Of a stretch of DNA of 64,000 bases, positions 27,735 through 34,517 are shown in pieces (position 1 is the first letter of the stretch; every line of letters begins with the position of its first letter). The notes beneath the pieces are model-generated. The model saw only the letters and a program-made list of their open reading frames with translations, made no database searches and was not told where the DNA came from. The stretch is from contig NZ_FXBM01000001.1 of assembly GCF_900177245.1 (NCBI RefSeq), positions 930,001 to 994,000 of the forward strand, written 5' to 3'. The position numbers were made by a program, and so were the translations under genes. This stretch comes from Rathayibacter oskolensis (lineage in GTDB: Bacteria; Actinomycetota; Actinomycetes; Actinomycetales; Microbacteriaceae).

Positions 27735-28808
27735 GTGGCTCTCACTATCGCAATCGTCGGACTCCCCAACGTCGGCAAGTCGACGCTCTTCAACGCCCTG
27801 ACCAAGAACACGGTGCTCGCGGCGAACTACCCGTTCGCGACGATCGAGCCCAACGTCGGCGTGGTGAACCTGCCCGACTCCCGCCTCGAGGTCCTCGCCG
27901 GCATCTTCGGCTCCGAGCGCATCCTCCCGGCCCCCGTCTCGTTCGTCGACATCGCGGGCATCGTCCGCGGTGCGTCCGAGGGGGAGGGGCTCGGCAACAA
28001 GTTTCTCGCGAACATCCGCGAGGCCGACGCCATCGCGCAGGTCATACGAGGCTTCGAGGACTCGGACGTCGTCCACGTCGACGGCAAGGTCGACGCCGCG
28101 AGCGACATGGAGACGATCAACACCGAGCTGGTCCTCGCCGACCTGCAGACCCTCGAGAAGGCCGAGGCGCGCTACGAGAAGGAGCTCAAGGGCCGCAAGA
28201 TCGAGCCGATCGTCCTCGAGACGGCGAAGAAGGCGCGCGAGTTCCTCGATCAGGGCAAGCCGCTGTCCGCCTCCTCGATCGACCTCGAGCCGATCCGCGA
28301 GCTGGGGCTGCTCACCGCGAAGCCCTTCATCTACGTGTTCAACGTCGACGAGGCCGTGCTGACGGACGACGCACGCAAGGCCGAGCTGGCCGCGCTCGTC
28401 GCGCCCGCGCACGCGATCTTCCTCGACGCGAAGCTGGAGTCGGAGCTCATCGACCTCGACGCGGCCGACGCCGCCGAGATGCTCGAGTCGACCGGCCAGA
28501 CGGAGTCGGGCCTGAACCAGCTCGCGACGATCGGCTTCGACACGCTCGGCCTGCAGACCTATCTGACGGCGGGTCCGAAGGAGTCGCGCGCCTGGACGAT
28601 CGGCAAGGGCTGGACCGCCCCGCAGGCGGCCGGTGTGATCCACTCCGACTTCCAGAAGGGCTTCATCAAGGCCGAGATCATCTCGTTCGACGACCTCGTC
28701 GAGACGGGCTCGATCGCCGAGGCCCGCGCGAAGGGCAAGGCCCGCATCGAGGGCAAGGACTACGTGATGCAGGACGGCGACGTGGTGGAGTTCCGCTTCA
28801 ACGTGTAG
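27735..28808 (+). CDS. ychF: redox-regulated ATPase YchF
   Basis: 357-residue Obg-family P-loop NTPase. G1 is GLPNVGKST (residues 9-17), G3 is DIAGIVRGASEGEGLGN, and the G4 region reads FIYVFNVDEA instead of NKxD, which is why YchF prefers ATP. A helical insert (about 130-200) and the C-terminal TGS domain with EFRFNV complete it. It is a conserved ribosome-associated protein involved in stress responses. Start GTG 27735. Its intact 3' end marks the left boundary of the accessory island. Confidence 0.96.
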   Translation: MALTIAIVGLPNVGKSTLFNALTKNTVLAANYPFATIEPNVGVVNLPDSRLEVLAGIFGSERILPAPVSFVDIAGIVRGASEGEGLGNKFLANIREADAIAQVIRGFEDSDVVHVDGKVDAASDMETINTELVLADLQTLEKAEARYEKELKGRKIEPIVLETAKKAREFLDQGKPLSASSIDLEPIRELGLLTAKPFIYVFNVDEAVLTDDARKAELAALVAPAHAIFLDAKLESELIDLDAADAAEMLESTGQTESGLNQLATIGFDTLGLQTYLTAGPKESRAWTIGKGWTAPQAAGVIHSDFQKGFIKAEIISFDDLVETGSIAEARAKGKARIEGKDYVMQDGDVVEFRFNV

Positions 28809-28856
28809 AAGTGTCTGTGCTCGTAGAAAAAATCTCGCCGAAAAAATGGGGATTGA

Positions 28857-29348
28857 ATGTCTATCGTGAAGAGCTATGGGGAGTTCTGGAATCCAGACGC
28901 GGTAAACTGGGGAGCGAAGGAACTGCTGGGCACGTGGCGCAATGCAGGGAGCAACAAACAGAATAACTTTTGGAGCGCAAAGGGCATCTACGTGCTCTAC
29001 CAAGAGTTCAAGCCGCTGTATGTTGGCAAGGCGCTCGCTGACAGTTCAGGTGTTGGGAAGAGGCTCGCGGACCACTTATCGGATCGTCTCGTTGGTCGGT
29101 GGGATATGTTTTCGTGGTACTCGCTTTCGAAGCCGAGCAAGACAACTCTGGCCGTGAACATCGCGGGCTCTCGACACCTGAGCACCAAGCAGATGGTCGA
29201 GACGCTCGAAGCTATCGCTATTTTAATCACCGATCCGCCTCTCAATCGAAAGCGGGAGAGCCTGGACGGTGCAATCGAGGTCGAGCAAATAGGGGGCAGC
29301 GTTCGCACTATCCGTTCATACTTGCAGGAACTGGTTGACCGCCCCTAA
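28857..29348 (+). CDS. GIY-YIG nuclease family protein
   Basis: 163-residue protein. GIY at residues 43-45 and YVG at 55-57 form the motif pair; Arg69 and His73 (GKRLADH), Glu115/118 (ETLEAIAIL) and Asn130 (PPLNRKR) match the catalytic Arg, metal-binding Glu and conserved Asn of GIY-YIG nucleases. Most of the protein is the domain, with about 40 extra residues at the N-terminus. The size recalls small restriction enzymes such as Hpy188I, but no sequence-level relation is claimed. ATG 28857 is preceded by GGGGA. Codon use is more mixed than in ychF. Its partner may be the methyltransferase 2.4 kb downstream. Confidence 0.72.
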   Translation: MSIVKSYGEFWNPDAVNWGAKELLGTWRNAGSNKQNNFWSAKGIYVLYQEFKPLYVGKALADSSGVGKRLADHLSDRLVGRWDMFSWYSLSKPSKTTLAVNIAGSRHLSTKQMVETLEAIAILITDPPLNRKRESLDGAIEVEQIGGSVRTIRSYLQELVDRP

Positions 29349-30208
29349 TAAAGGCAAGACGTAGTAGGTTTATCGGCACCTAGCGCACGCGAACCACAAG
29401 ATGCAAATACTGTCCTATGGTATCCCACGCGAAACGAACATTGGCAACGCGGGGGCATGCGCCTAGCACTGGTCCCAGTGGTCAACGCAGAGTTGACAAC
29501 ATTATCATTTGTACAGCCTAGTATCTCAAAATCTGATTCACACCGAGACTATCCCTTTTGCCGCGACCAGCCGTATTCTGGGGTACACTCGCGACGGCGC
29601 CGACAACGAAGAACTTGGCTAGCGACCACAGAAGTTGCTCGTATCAACAGTTCGCGCTCCATACCGATCACGGGTCAGGTGAAGTGCGGTCAGCCGGGCT
29701 TTGCGCGCATGCGAGGGGACCTGTCAACCGGCGATGTCGTCGCAGTTCCGGAAATCAGTGGCGTTGGCCCTAACGCGTGTAAGCCGTCATCAATAGTACC
29801 AACTCATCCACTAGAGGCACTTACGTCCAAGCATGCGCCGATGGTGCGGCTTTGAATAGGATAGGCGAAGCGATGTGCTATCTCTTATGCAGATCGGAGT
29901 CCGCTTCGTCGAGCGCCGCGCGAAGGTCGGACTTGTAGGGGAAAGGCCAGGATGTTTTTGGGGGAAACCCGCGCTCTGGACGGCAAGTCGGCAGCGTTCC
30001 CGGTCGGCCTGAGCGACGAAGGTGTGAACACCTCCGGTATCGCCACGACACATGGCATCAGCGCCTCAACGGGCGCTGGCTACATCGCCACGCCCAGCGA
30101 CGACGCAGCGCATCCGGGTTCTCAGGCCGTGTGGACCGCCCCGGTCTGCTCTGTGGTGTAGCCACGGAGCGCGACAGCCGATAGATTTCTAGAAATGGCG
30201 TCGTGGCG
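29349..30208. other. 860-base stretch without a convincing gene
   Basis: Moderate-GC sequence with no well-supported coding frame. A TTGACA at about 29493 and a TAGTAT 20 bases further on form at best a weak promoter. Minus-strand sequence from about 30053 to 29878 reads as two frames that could be pieces of one broken gene (one contains FVAQADRERC, the other YKSDLRAALDEADSDLHKR before a stop). A 69-codon plus-strand frame (29952-30161) overlaps these. No hairpin or tRNA-like element stands out. Confidence 0.5.
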
Positions 30209-31636
30209 ATGGGGGATGAAGTGCCGGAACGAGTGGTGATCGACTGGGACGACCTGGCTGACCTGGACCTTGATCCGGACAACCCCCGGCACGATCCTGG
30301 GATGCCGCGTCGCGACATCATCAAATACCTGGTAGAGAAAGAAAGCGTACTTGGCCTGGCGAGGGACATCGTCAAGGTAGGCCTCAGCCCCTTGGACATG
30401 TTCGGGGCGATTTCCGCTCCTGGAGGCGGTTACGTCATCCTTGAGGGCAATCGCAGACTCTGCGCCTTGATCCTCCTTCATGATCCGACGCTCGCCCCGT
30501 CATCCGAGCGGCGGGCGTTTGAGCGATTGACTCGTTCGTTCAGTTCCGAGCACATCACGATCGAGTTGACCGTGTTCAAGGATGAGGACGAAGCCGACGT
30601 TTGGATCGATAGAAAGCATGCGGGGTCTGGCTCAGGAAACGGTCCTCGGCCTTGGAACCCGGTGCAGTTGGCTAGGCGGTACGGAGATCGGACTGGCAAC
30701 GCCCTCGCGCTAGCCCTTCTCGACTACGGTCAAAAGCACGGAATCCTGACGAAGGCCCAGTCCGCAGACATCCTCACCACGATTACTCGGTTCGTTTCGA
30801 ACCCATTTGTTCGAAAGCACGGCCTCGGTATTGCGACGAGTGCGTCTGATCCTGAGTTCAAGTTTCTAGGTACCCAGACCCTGTTCGATCTTCGCCTGCG
30901 GCGTCTTCTGGAGGACATTGTCGCGCGCGAAAATGGCGCGACTTCGAGGACGTCCAGCGCGGACCGCACCAAGTACGCGCAAGACCACCTCGTGAACCTC
31001 ACTGAGCCGTCAGTGGAGTCCTCGGGTGGGTCTGACTCTGACCTGCCGGAGGAGCCGGAGAACGCATCTTCGTCTGATTCTGATCAGCAACAGAACGATC
31101 CTTCCGCAGAGGACGAACCGCAAACCGACGGGGACAGTAAGCCGGGCGGGGGCGGCCTTCACCCCGATAAGCGACTCAAGCTTGTGCCGGACTCGTTCGC
31201 ACCCAGCCTGCGGGACGAACGGCTGAAACGCATCCTCGCGGAACTCGAGTCGGTTCGGCGTTTCAGTCCGATAGCAGCGGCGCTCGTAGTGCGCGTGTTC
31301 ATGGAGTCGGTCACGGTCGTGTACTTGGAGACTCGCGGCTCGCAGATCAATCACAACGACAAACTGCACCTCCTCGTACATAATGTCCTGGCACAGATCG
31401 AAAAGGAGAGGAAGAGTGGTGCGATTCACCTCACGAAGGCGGAGAATGGCGCACTTGGTCTCCTCAAAGGTCAGGTGACGGCGCCCGATTATGTCTATAG
31501 TGCATTTTATCTGGGCCTCATCGCCCACGGTTCTGCGTTCCCGCAGTGGGAGGTGTTGACGAAGAAGTGGGATGAAATCGAGCCGATTCTCGGCTACATC
31601 GCCTCGAACGCGGAACCTGCCATCGAACCCGCGTAG
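30209..31636 (+). CDS. ParB-like domain protein with helical, possibly HEPN-like, C-terminal domain
   Basis: About 475 residues. The N-terminal ParB/Srx-like domain has DLDLDPDNPRH, then GLSPLDMFG and ILEGNRRLCALILL (about residues 76-90), the site used by ParB-fold proteins for nucleotide binding. A middle helical segment (about 135-260) is followed by an acidic Ser/Asp/Gln linker (about 260-310). The helical C-terminal domain has AALVVRVFMESV and LGLIAHGSAFP, an R...H arrangement resembling DUF4145/HEPN-type domains; this is inference. Starts at 30203, 30209 and 30221 are possible; GGGGG before the GTG at 30221 supports the shortest. It ends 81 bases before the methyltransferase, likely one unit. 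Confidence 0.65.
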   Translation: MGDEVPERVVIDWDDLADLDLDPDNPRHDPGMPRRDIIKYLVEKESVLGLARDIVKVGLSPLDMFGAISAPGGGYVILEGNRRLCALILLHDPTLAPSSERRAFERLTRSFSSEHITIELTVFKDEDEADVWIDRKHAGSGSGNGPRPWNPVQLARRYGDRTGNALALALLDYGQKHGILTKAQSADILTTITRFVSNPFVRKHGLGIATSASDPEFKFLGTQTLFDLRLRRLLEDIVARENGATSRTSSADRTKYAQDHLVNLTEPSVESSGGSDSDLPEEPENASSSDSDQQQNDPSAEDEPQTDGDSKPGGGGLHPDKRLKLVPDSFAPSLRDERLKRILAELESVRRFSPIAAALVVRVFMESVTVVYLETRGSQINHNDKLHLLVHNVLAQIEKERKSGAIHLTKAENGALGLLKGQVTAPDYVYSAFYLGLIAHGSAFPQWEVLTKKWDEIEPILGYIASNAEPAIEPA

Positions 31637-31717
31637 CAAACAGGCGCCCCTGCTGGCCAACGTGGACGCAACCCTGTAGCGTTCCCGGTGACCACGAGTC
31701 GGACTGGACGGACCTGG

Positions 31718-32578
31718 ATGCCCTCAACGCCTTCACCCCTGCGATACCCGGGGGGTAAGACCGCCCTCTTCAAGCTTGCAGAACCGCTCTTGGAGTGGAA
31801 CGGTCTGCGCAAGACGACATACGCCGAGCCCTTCGCGGGTGGTGGTGGGCTGGCGCTCTCCCTTCTCTTTGAGGGCATGGTGCGTCGTATCGTCCTTAAC
31901 GACATCGATCCTGGTATCTACTCTCTTTGGGATGCGATGCTGAATCGAACCGACGCTTTGACGCAGCTGGTCACCAGGACGCCGATCACTATGGATGAGT
32001 GGTACCGGCAGCGAGAAATTTACCGCGCTATGAAGGATGTTCCGTCACTTGAGCTTGCGTTCGCAACCCTGTTTCTGAATCGCACCAACAGATCGGGAGT
32101 TATCAAGGGTGGCGTCATCGGCGGCCTTGAGCAAAAGGGCGAGTACAAGCTCGACTGCCGCTTTCAGAAGCCTATAATTGTCGAAAAGATCGAGCGCATT
32201 GCGCGATACAAGCGATCAATCTCTATTGCACGGAGTGATGGTCAGGACTTTCTGCGTGGCATGTCTCACCGAACCGACCGGGTCGTGTACTTCATTGACC
32301 CGCCCTACTTCGGTAAGGGTTCCGGCCTTTACACAAACTTTTACACCGACGAAGACCATGCAGCGCTATCGAATGTGGTGCGCGGTCTCGGGCAACCATG
32401 GGTGCTTACATATGATCTAGTACCACAGATCCAAGATCTGTATGCGGGCTTTCCTCAGTATGCGTTCGACCTGAATTACACCGCCGCCGTCAAGCGAGTA
32501 GGCACGGAACTGATGGTCACGAGCCAGGGCATTTCAGTTGCGGGCATCCCGCAGTTAAGGACGACTGCAGTGGCCTGA
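31718..32578 (+). CDS. D12-class DNA adenine N6-methyltransferase
   Basis: 286-residue Dam/DpnM-family enzyme that transfers methyl from S-adenosylmethionine to adenine N6. LRYPGGKTAL (residues 8-17) and AEPFAGGGG (36-44) form the cofactor site; DPPY at 194-197 is catalytic motif IV. The region between (about 60-180) would read the target site, which cannot be predicted. ATG 31718 gives the standard N-terminus, with GGACGG upstream; GTG 31688 would add ten residues. No typical restriction gene is adjacent, so it may be an orphan methylase, a self-mark for the ParB-like protein, or the partner of the GIY-YIG nuclease. Confidence 0.88.
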   Translation: MPSTPSPLRYPGGKTALFKLAEPLLEWNGLRKTTYAEPFAGGGGLALSLLFEGMVRRIVLNDIDPGIYSLWDAMLNRTDALTQLVTRTPITMDEWYRQREIYRAMKDVPSLELAFATLFLNRTNRSGVIKGGVIGGLEQKGEYKLDCRFQKPIIVEKIERIARYKRSISIARSDGQDFLRGMSHRTDRVVYFIDPPYFGKGSGLYTNFYTDEDHAALSNVVRGLGQPWVLTYDLVPQIQDLYAGFPQYAFDLNYTAAVKRVGTELMVTSQGISVAGIPQLRTTAVA

Positions 32579-33077
32579 GTTGCTTTCAGCACGGCAACGC
32601 CCACGCCTCCATAGACCCCATTGACAACCTGCGCGCGGGCTCCCCGGATTGCCTCACCGCATGCCGTGCAACTTTCTGGCGTTCCTTATTGACGGCCGGC
32701 GTCGGCCGTTGCTGTCCTGGTGGCGTACTCAGCGTCGGTCCTGTCGGTCCGGAAAGCAGCTAACGCTTTCGCTTCCAGCTTTTGTGTCTCGGCATACTTC
32801 CCGGTTCCGGGCACGCAACAAATTGGCCGGACGGAACCAGTTCGTTACGGCCCATTGCCCATTTCCAAATATCTCGCGCAAACCGTTCGATTGAGGGCGG
32901 TGAGATGGTCCGGCTTGCTCTCCACTGGCATTTCACGCCCGACCGCTCTCCGCCGCTATCGCGGCTGGGGCGGATGTCGATGGTGCAGCACCAGATGATG
33001 TGAGGACATCGTTCGGTGGAGGTCCGTTTGACCATCGGTTCGTCGAATTGTGGCCGGTTTCTCGCATTTGACCTACT

Positions 33078-33109
33078 CTGCGAGCCGAACGTGTTTCTGC
33101 GAGCCGGAG
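33078..33109 (+). repeat. dispersed repeat, truncated copy
   Basis: Matches 10628-10659 at 29 of 32 bases but lacks the left arm that makes the first copy a strong hairpin. It lies at the right edge of the AT-richer island. Confidence 0.55.
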
Positions 33110-33119
33110 GTGCCTCCGG
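33104..33119 (-). terminator. short hairpin after the DUF2510 gene
   Basis: CCGGAGG-TG-CCTCCGG immediately beyond the stop of the minus-strand gene ending at 33122. The loop is short, so this is only a possible terminator. Confidence 0.4.
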
Positions 33120-33121
33120 AG

Positions 33122-34192
33122 TCAGTTGAGCAGGTCGCCGATGATCCAGCTCGAGAGACCGACGAGGGTCGCGATGCCGACCACGACCCAGGCGATGACG
33201 CGGCGGGTCGAGCGGGTGACCGCCTCCGAGGTGCGGGAGGAGCGCCGCAGCGGGCGGACATAGGCGGCGGGCACGTCGTACCGTGCGGCCGTCGGCACGA
33301 GCGCGGGCAGTGTCACCGCGGGCCCGTCCACCCAGTGCGCGGGCAGCTCGGACGCGCGCGCGGCCTGGAGCGTCAGCTCGGCTTTCAGAGGTGAGCTGCG
33401 CAGGGCGGCGTACGCGGTCGGCGTGAGGCCCATCCCTTTGAGGTGGCGGACCGTGGGTGCGAAGTTCGGAGACGTGCCTGCCGACAGCTCGCCGACCCGG
33501 TCGCCGTCCAGTCGCACCTCGATCAGGTCGCTCGGGAGGAGGTGCAGCGTCACCAGGACGAGCCCGCGGCCCTCGACGATGCCGGTCAGCTGCGCGAAGT
33601 GCTCGTCCTCGCGCAGCACCTGCAGCCCGCGACCCCAGGGCAGCACGGAGTACCGCGACGTCGGGAGTGAGTTGAGCGGCACCACGAGGTCGGGCGACGG
33701 CAGCGCGATGCGGAGTGAGGCGCGCAGCCCCTCCTCCCCGCGCTCGACCCGGAGGCGGGCGCGGGTCACGGGGACGGCTCTGCTCGCGACGATGCGGTCG
33801 ATCGAGGGCCGGTAGGACGCCGCTTCGGGGAGGTAGCCGATGACCCGCCCACGCGCGCGGATCGAGACGGCGGGCGCGCCAGTGGGATGGTCGGGCTCGG
33901 GGATCAGCTCGACGTCGAGCCACTCCTCGACGACCTCGCCGGGACGCACCGGTCGGCCGAGGGCGTCGGCGATCTCCTCGATCCGCTCAGCCTCGTCGAT
34001 CGCATCGATTGTCGGGGTGCCGTCGGCGTTCGGGAGGCGGAGGACAGTAGAAAGGGGCGAGAACGGTCGATCGACGGCGGGCATGCGGTCGTCGGCGGAC
34101 ATGCGGTCCTCGGTCCACCGGGTGCCGTCCCACCAGCGCATCGCGCCGCCCTCGGGGTACCAGCCCGCCGGGGCGCTCACGTTCTCGTCCAC
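33122..34192 (-). CDS. DUF2510 domain membrane protein
   Basis: 356 residues. The N-terminal DUF2510 motif is AGWYPEGGAMRWWDGTRWTE (about residues 8-27). A long middle region with alternating hydrophobic and charged strands (about 60-300) includes VIGYLPEAASYRPSI and LKGMGLTPTAYAALRSSP, suggesting two related HIRAN-like beta modules; that is tentative. One C-terminal membrane helix (about 333-352) anchors it. Function unknown. GTG 34192 (GGGGAG upstream) and GTG 34180 are both possible. Base composition is again that of the host chromosome. Confidence 0.75.
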   Translation of the reverse strand: MDENVSAPAGWYPEGGAMRWWDGTRWTEDRMSADDRMPAVDRPFSPLSTVLRLPNADGTPTIDAIDEAERIEEIADALGRPVRPGEVVEEWLDVELIPEPDHPTGAPAVSIRARGRVIGYLPEAASYRPSIDRIVASRAVPVTRARLRVERGEEGLRASLRIALPSPDLVVPLNSLPTSRYSVLPWGRGLQVLREDEHFAQLTGIVEGRGLVLVTLHLLPSDLIEVRLDGDRVGELSAGTSPNFAPTVRHLKGMGLTPTAYAALRSSPLKAELTLQAARASELPAHWVDGPAVTLPALVPTAARYDVPAAYVRPLRRSSRTSEAVTRSTRRVIAWVVVGIATLVGLSSWIIGDLLN

Positions 34193-34307
34193 CGGCTCCC
34201 CGTTCTCTCGGCCGATCGAGTCTACGAGGGGAGCGCGGGCAGGCCCGATTCCTCGAAAGTTGCGGTGATCGCGCGCCACTACCGCAACTTCTGAGGAGTG
34301 GAGGGGC

Positions 34308-34517
34308 TCAGAGCGCCGGGTCCTCCGCCGCGTCGTCCGGGGCGATCGCCGCGCGCTGCTCCGTGGCACCCGAGCCGCTCCGCGGCCGCGCCTCGGCGAG
34401 GGAGGCGCCGGTGATCAGGCGCCGGACGTAGCGGGCGTGACCCCGGTTGATCGGTGCCGGATCCTCGAGGACCTCGTGGAGACGGCGGAGCGAGGCACGG
34501 GTCGCGAGGCTCGACAT
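34308..34517 (-). CDS. small hypothetical protein
   Basis: 69-residue protein from ATG 34517: a basic helical N-terminal half (RRLHEVLEDPAPINRGHARYVRRLITG) and a low-complexity acidic/Ala C-terminus. There is no recognised domain. It is kept because the N-terminal half looks like a real helical peptide and the divergent SDR gene starts 77 bases away, leaving room for shared promoters. Confidence 0.5.
   Translation of the reverse strand: MSSLATRASLRRLHEVLEDPAPINRGHARYVRRLITGASLAEARPRSGSGATEQRAAIAPDDAAEDPAL

Follow-up and report, generated by a model that had tools for sequence, protein, structure and literature searches.

Directly downstream of ychF in Rathayibacter oskolensis lies a short run of DNA that differs in composition from its surroundings and holds three clear genes. 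Which system, if any, do these genes make up, and do all three belong to it? We addressed this in a window of 64,000 nucleotides (contig NZ_FXBM01000001.1, positions 930,001 to 994,000), to whose coordinates all positions below refer.

Boundaries and composition of the insert

A sequence-only reading of the window had seen a segment of distinct composition running from ychF to just before a DUF2510 gene, and that outline was borne out. The relative G362, whose ychF is 95% identical, has an empty site (loci L144/L164), with about 14 bases where the insert sits in R. oskolensis. Because similarity to G362 breaks at 28815 and resumes at 33035, we place the insert at 28816–33034, about 4.2 kb with sharp ends. 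Its GC content is 0.578, against a mean of 0.716 elsewhere in the window (sd 0.024, n = 116 overlapping 1-kb windows), and the seven 1-kb windows of the island have a mean GC 5.6 sd below the rest. Codon usage is not normal either: GC3 is 0.64–0.70 in the three insert genes versus 0.89–0.96 in seven flanking genes, and a CAI-like index is 0.27–0.32 versus 0.62–0.84. The reference set for this index was six of the seven flanking genes; ychF, outside the set, scored 0.82. The genes are also not fixed after ychF in relatives. Judged by its sequence, the insert is of foreign origin and was acquired horizontally.

The 3′ end of ychF (28785–28808, + strand) is an insertion hotspot. In the congener G406, the same 24 bases of the ychF end also mark the far end of an element encoding a serine recombinase. 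No second copy of this core was found in the window and, since it has just the one, insertion by a G406-type serine recombinase is unproven. Repeats within 28780–33200 were short and none brackets the insert. There was no integrase among the insert ORFs scanned, no tRNA gene in the window and no Rfam match in 28000–34500, and scans for promoters and terminators were uninformative.

Three intact ORFs, all on the + strand, lie at 28857–29348 (163 aa), 30203–31636 (477 aa) and 31688–32578 (296 aa), and approximately 1.3 kb of the insert has no supported gene. In the gene-poor 854 bp at 29349–30202, the longest listed ORF (132 aa) is Pfam-negative. We considered a phage remnant in this stretch and rejected it, as there was no DNA match in phage records. 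A Pfam scan of the insert ORFs recognized no phage structural genes, which speaks against a prophage location.

Assignment of the gene pair to PD-Lambda-5

The second and third genes, A and B, answer the first part of our question. A (30203–31636, + strand, 477 aa) matches the PADLOC profile PDLC04002 for PD-Lambda-5_A at E = 2.6e-220 over residues 7–476; its start is either GTG at 30203 or ATG at 30209. B (31688–32578, + strand, 296 aa) matches PDLC04018 for PD-Lambda-5_B at E = 2.9e-112, with a generic type II methyltransferase profile scoring almost equally (E = 1.2e-106). The genes are adjacent and co-directional, their listed ORFs lying 51 bp apart. Both profile matches run nearly end to end, and the invariant residues of the two alignments are kept. 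On these matches, the pair is PD-Lambda-5, a named anti-phage system, and the locus is a further example rather than a new system; the earlier impression that the set belonged to no recognized named system is set aside. In PHROG, A falls in a family of unknown function and B in a DNA methyltransferase family.

That the insert is instead a decayed remnant of cargo with no present function seems improbable to us. The lack of an integrase among the scanned ORFs, the single ychF end and the 1.3 kb free of genes would fit decay, but the three ORFs are full length and A and B have kept both their extent and their invariant residues.

B is predicted to be a D12-class N6-adenine DNA methyltransferase, as the sequence-only reading had it. 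It matches Pfam MethyltransfD12 at E = 8.8e-18 and, in the PDB, adenine-methyltransferase and Dam chains. It carries AEPFAGGGG at residue 46 and DPPY at 204, which we take to be the AdoMet-binding and DPPY motifs of D12 methyltransferases. Two aligned relatives begin at the residue encoded by 31718.

In its available text, the original description (Vassallo et al. 2022, PMC9519451) presents PD-Lambda-5 as a compact restriction-modification-plus-abortive system and shows anti-phage activity for an E. coli relative. The R. oskolensis copy resembles that system in that A and B are neighbors and each matches its profile over almost the full length. It differs in being chromosomal without a recognized phage structural gene, in having a GIY-YIG gene alongside, and in its actinobacterial host (Microbacteriaceae). 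According to the accessible part of another report, a prophage location is frequent and not obligatory (PMC10482375). In near relatives, mobile-element genes occur no more than 3 kb away, namely a terminase small subunit gene (L089) and a TrwC relaxase gene (L086). Like a type II restriction-modification system with a Dam-family (D12) methyltransferase, the pair sets a D12 gene next to a putative effector gene; unlike such a system, the partner is ParB-like, with no recognized restriction endonuclease.

Pairing across genome and viral loci

We surveyed 137 A loci, 57 from genomes and 80 from viral contigs (best 80 of 118). The genome loci came from an alignment-based contig scan, a single-protein scan having found nothing. 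A D12 methyltransferase was counted at phmmer E < 1e-20 within 2.5 kb of A, weaker D12 matches being left uncounted near or far, and near-duplicate loci were retained in the counts. By this measure, 55 of the 57 genome loci have a D12 gene near A, always on the same strand and in 48 cases with a gap of at most 150 bp. Among the viral loci (best 80 of 118) the figure is 61 of 80; in 20 of those 61 the D12 gene is inverted relative to A, directly adjacent in 8 cases and about 1 kb away in 12. The other 694 kb of the same loci contained no D12 match at E < 1e-20. Distances among A proteins and among B proteins are also correlated (r = 0.893, 0 of 2000 permutations, n = 50; the window plus 49 of the 57 genome loci; those that lacked B or had a short ORF were excluded). 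The pairing of A with B, which the sequence-only reading had raised as something to check, is tight and is not due to chance.

The 19 viral loci (of the best 80 of 118) without D12 within 2.5 kb consist of 12 with a C5-type methyltransferase, six that end within 3 bases of A, and L081, which has 1.7 kb after A with no methyltransferase ORF there. A C5-type ORF was thus present in 12 of the 13 viral loci (best 80 of 118) with at least 1.7 kb after A and no D12, and the C5-type motif pair was found in 0 of 122 other loci. The C5 call rests on FSGCGG-like and PCQ motifs, with one protein (L080) compared with profiles. Two of the 57 genome loci, L116 and L141, have neither a D12 gene near A nor a C5-type ORF. 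Altogether, a DNA methyltransferase ORF lies beside A in 128 of 137 loci (viral loci being the best 80 of 118), 116 of them D12 and 12 C5-type; the nine others are the six viral stretches ending at A, L081, L116 and L141. This near-universal neighbor makes a self-marking hypothesis for PD-Lambda-5 directly testable.

Protein A and a proposed mechanism

A has a ParB-like N-terminal part, with an EGNRR box at residues 81–85, followed by a C-terminal domain. The window protein itself has no Pfam match, ParB_N included. Across the family, ParB_N matches 6 of 72 members at E ≤ 0.1 (best 7e-4), and the family profile matches ParB chains in the PDB weakly (E = 0.015 and 0.028). The EGNRR box is present in all 72 aligned members, an invariance that is partly by construction because the relatives were gathered with patterns containing EGNRR. 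We identified no nuclease motif in A, and searches with the C-terminal domain gave no match in the PDB and none in Pfam that was solid (the Pfam scan covered 19 rows, the L015 row at full length; the PDB search was run with L015 corrected).

The sequence-only reading had also called this protein HEPN-like, a label that did not hold up. The Rx4-6H motif is not enriched, occurring in 23 of 72 members versus 37.6 ± 3.7 after shuffling, and it falls at the conserved histidine in 0 of 42. The HEPN family DUF4145 matched 1 of the 19 C-terminal members (E = 0.003). An HEPN assignment is unsupported by motif, Pfam or PDB profile. Some members of the superfamily have lost Rx4-6H, as the available portion of Anantharaman et al. 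2013 (PMC3710099) states. The ParB-HEPN fusions in that portion (e.g., Saro_3948) likewise join a ParB-like part to a C-terminal domain in a restriction-modification context, whereas in the A family the Rx4-6H motif is not enriched; no Novosphingobium plasmid was among the matches of the A family search. GmrSD/DUF262, DndB and DpdB, as far as the accessible text on them goes (PMC10952713, PMC10853773, PMC12839542), share a ParB-like domain in DNA-modification defense, but none of the scanned insert ORFs matched an HNH (DUF1524), phosphorothioate or deazaguanine family.

The literature naming PD-Lambda-5, in its available text, offers no worked-out mechanism. The reading that we lean toward is that the insert holds one PD-Lambda-5 system, in which B marks self and A acts on unmarked phage DNA, together with a probably unrelated GIY-YIG gene. 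B would methylate adenine at a short site in host DNA, and A would engage phage DNA lacking this mark through its ParB-like domain. By analogy, the EGNRR-box domain may be a nucleotide-dependent DNA-binding clamp or a nuclease. The C-terminal domain would then halt infection, by cutting DNA or disabling the cell. Both the reading of the mark by A and the nature of the effector step are what we infer.

T-even phage DNA carries glucosylated cytosines, which block many restriction enzymes. In the available text on PD-lambda-5, protection is stronger against T-even phages than against lambda, so that plain restriction does not fit readily. PD-Lambda-5 might instead be a toxin-antitoxin-like abortive system, in which a toxic A is restrained by B through binding or methylation until phage takeover frees A and the cell dies. 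The discoverers suggested an abortive component in the accessible text (Vassallo et al. 2022, PMC9519451), the C-terminal domain showed no DNA nuclease motif that we could identify, and the single DUF4145 match points the same way, as do the ParB-HEPN fusions, mostly active, of the available text of Anantharaman et al. 2013 (PMC3710099). Set against this are the Rx4-6H counts given above and the two A genes (L116 and L141) with no nearby methyltransferase, and we regard such a system as unlikely, if worth keeping in view beside self-marking by B.

The GIY-YIG protein

The first gene of the insert (28857–29348, + strand) encodes a predicted stand-alone GIY-YIG nuclease-like protein of 163 aa. 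We take the motif to be a GIY and a YVG followed further along by R, H, E and N. When the protein is aligned with two distant relatives, GIY, YVG, R69, H73, E118 and N130 are the same in all three. The earlier label stands on these residues, although Pfam gave no GIY-YIG match and UvrC N-domain chains in the PDB matched only at E = 0.46–1. Relatives occur in G472, where the protein carries HARE-HTH (Pfam), and in G745. The protein is rare, with relatives in 2 of 396 genomes of the phylum (Actinomycetota) and in 0 of 398 of the family (Microbacteriaceae) in a scan without a positive control. One viral-contig scan with it gave no match, and two Synechococcus phages carry a relative.

Could all three genes work as a single system, with the GIY-YIG protein as the cutter, the ParB-like protein directing it and methylation sparing self? 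They sit together in the same foreign DNA and are alike in GC and codon usage, the catalytic residues are present, and GIY-YIG enzymes act as restriction enzymes elsewhere. Yet a GIY-YIG relative (phmmer E ≤ 0.01) was found in 0 of the 137 PD-Lambda-5_A loci (viral loci being the best 80 of 118, and some loci short), and four loci of GIY-YIG relatives (L004, L005, L211 and L212) lack PD-Lambda-5 genes over the stretch compared. Moreover, the 854 bp without a supported gene separate the GIY-YIG gene from A, and DNA similarity to five genomes with A relatives spans the A and B genes only. We find a three-gene system very hard to credit. We reject a role as effector of A and B on co-occurrence across these loci, and by its distribution the protein is probably a passenger outside PD-Lambda-5. 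The restriction-modification-like module proposed earlier thus survives in part: the methyltransferase plausibly marks self with a ParB-like partner, while the GIY-YIG part drops out. What had been an unnamed island becomes a known system, with a likely passenger nuclease separated from the pair.

Three-gene sets in viral contigs

In viral contigs, a shorter ParB-like protein occurs with another protein and a D12 or C5-type methyltransferase in three-gene sets. Because these shorter forms pair with other partners, the ParB-like reader gives the impression of a common core whose partners can be exchanged. Tentatively, the ParB-like domain could be a general reader of DNA methylation in a modular defense family, in which the writer is D12 (N6-adenine) or C5-cytosine and the effector is either its own C-terminal domain, as in PD-Lambda-5, or a separate protein, maybe a nuclease. 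If true, PD-Lambda-5 would belong, as one branch, to a family of ParB-guided restriction systems in which writer and effector can be swapped.

PDB and Pfam searches with the separate protein gave no credible family, so that calling it a "nuclease" is guesswork based on which residues are conserved. The protein is 300–380 aa long and has an invariant D-x3-D-x3-W … Q … W-x2-K signature. Of the 12 C5 loci, 10 entered the comparison of this protein; the other two, L071 and L079, have an ORF of 310 and 315 aa at that place.

Identification of a PD-Lambda-5 gene pair

The sequence-only reading had not recognized the three insert genes as a named system. PADLOC, however, names two of them as PD-Lambda-5: the ParB-like protein A (30203–31636, + strand) matches PD-Lambda-5_A (E = 2.6e-220), and the adjacent protein B (31688–32578, + strand) matches PD-Lambda-5_B (E = 2.9e-112). 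B is a D12 methyltransferase by Pfam, and its PDB matches include adenine-methyltransferase and Dam chains. PD-lambda-5 came out of a functional selection in E. coli (PMC9519451), and another paper describes it as frequently prophage-encoded in Actinobacteria (PMC10482375). The insert holds a further member of an already known system, with a likely passenger nuclease alongside, at a variable site.

The suggested check on co-occurrence of the ParB-like and methyltransferase genes came out in favor of the A–B pair. A D12 methyltransferase adjoins A in 55 of 57 genome loci, on the same strand in all 55, and lies beside A in 61 of 80 viral-contig loci (the best 80 of 118), 20 of those 61 being on the opposite strand. 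Farther from A, no D12 matches at E < 1e-20 were found in approximately 694 kb of the same loci. Relatives were drawn from Microbacteriaceae, the family of G001 (the Frigoribacterium genome of locus L090), in which the A profile matches 9 of 398 genomes (E ≤ 1e-10), full-length in one of the nine. All eight of these genomes examined with flanks have a D12 methyltransferase within approximately 1.1 kb of A, and the ninth (G002, the genome of locus L089) has one too; in G050 (locus L216), A lies across two frames that overlap. Distances among A proteins correlated with those among B proteins (r = 0.893; 0 of 2000 permutations; n = 50, the window counted in).

The GIY-YIG gene

The GIY-YIG protein (28857–29348, + strand) keeps the expected catalytic residues and had been put forward as a possible effector of a restriction-modification-like module. 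The A–B pairing in that proposal held up; the role given to GIY-YIG did not, as none of the 137 A loci (57 genome loci and the best 80 of 118 viral loci) contains a relative. Across the phylum, relatives turned up in just two genomes out of 396, and DNA similarity between the insert and five genomes with A relatives is confined to the A–B part. From these comparisons, the most likely reading is that the gene encodes a passenger nuclease distinct from the A–B pair.

HARE-HTH is a predicted DNA-reading domain. It forms the N-terminus of the relative in locus L211 (1264–2076; Pfam E = 1.1e-18), and the relative in locus L212 (2697–3527) has an extension judged similar by eye; the window copy has neither. 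The two extended proteins are a lead to a small family of modified-DNA nucleases.

Domains of A and a possible mechanism

A had been called ParB-like/HEPN-like. An EGNRR box and weak ParB matches suggest that the N-terminal part may deserve the first half of that label, with the weight of the box tempered by our having gathered A relatives with patterns that contain EGNRR. In the C-terminal domain, RxxxE, H, P and W are invariant across 19 relatives. The HEPN label is unsupported because the Rx4-6H motif is not above chance in this domain. Since one of the 19 members matches DUF4145 (E = 0.003) and PMC3710099 describes HEPN families that have lost the motif, the domain could still be a divergent or inactive HEPN. 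That paper also gives examples of ParB-HEPN fusions and of operons combining HEPN genes with genes for ParB and DNA methylases, so the general ParB/HEPN/methylase idea is not new.

We lean toward a model in which the adenine methyltransferase B would mark self DNA and the ParB-like protein A would recognize phage DNA that lacks the mark. The E. coli work used an mrr-deleted host, for a reason not stated there (PMC9519451); this choice is compatible with active methylation. Protection by PD-lambda-5 was stronger against T-even phages than against lambda, which is not as simple restriction would predict.

Three-gene sets in viral contigs

Some viral contigs encode a shorter ParB-like protein (approximately 360–400 aa), whose N-terminal part is matched by PD-Lambda-5_A profiles (two tested). 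Next comes a separate protein (approximately 300–380 aa) and, after it, a methyltransferase that in most cases lies on the opposite strand. Among the best 80 of 118 viral loci, 11 with a recognized separate protein have a D12-type methyltransferase (L053, L056, L058, L059, L064–L066, L068, L069, L078 and L083). A C5-type ORF, on the opposite strand, is found in 12 of 13 loci in the same sample that lack D12 and extend at least 1.7 kb beyond A (L050, L060, L063, L071, L074–L076, L079, L080, L082, L084 and L085), versus none of 122 other loci. The separate protein, for which the comparison covered 10 of the C5 loci, has invariant D199, D203, W207, Q226, W233 and K236 (14 aligned members) and matched no credible Pfam or PDB family. 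A partial open-access literature search found no description of such sets. The adenine-for-cytosine methyltransferase swap beside the same putative reader is the aspect worth following.

The insert and its site

The segment of distinct composition is real. GC3 is 0.64–0.70 in the three insert genes versus 0.89–0.96 in seven flanking genes, and the mean GC of the island (28816–33034) is 5.6 SD under the rest of the window. Against the empty site of G362, similarity breaks off at 28815 and restarts at 33035, with approximately 14 bases between.

All 15 congeners (the genomes of G362's genus) carry ychF; A has a weak match in one (G050), on a contig other than that of ychF. Where the DUF2510 gene was found, its distance from ychF ranged from approximately 100–120 bp (G362, G404) up to 4.7 kb (G175); it was not found in the stretches examined of G407, G267, G405 and G335. 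Occupants of the site include Fic/Doc genes (G403 and G405 by Pfam, G387 by eye), an SF1-type helicase with an MkoC match (G175), a RelA/SpoT-domain protein (G225) and, by eye, a pair of proteins predicted to be secreted, whose starts are twin-arginine-like (G120, locus L165, 8899–11062). G406 (loci L199/L193) carries a 16-kb element at the ychF 3′ end, in which Pfam recognizes a serine recombinase. By eye the element resembles a phage, but the one other gene of it that was scanned had no Pfam match. This element shares 15 bases with the ychF 3′ end on the ychF side and 24 on the far side, the 24-base core lying at 28785–28808 of the window. Within this genus, then, the ychF 3′ end serves as an insertion hotspot, of which the window insert is one occupant.

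For the DUF2510 protein (33122–34369, − strand), a HIRAN match reached E = 0.0037, short of the curated cut-off.
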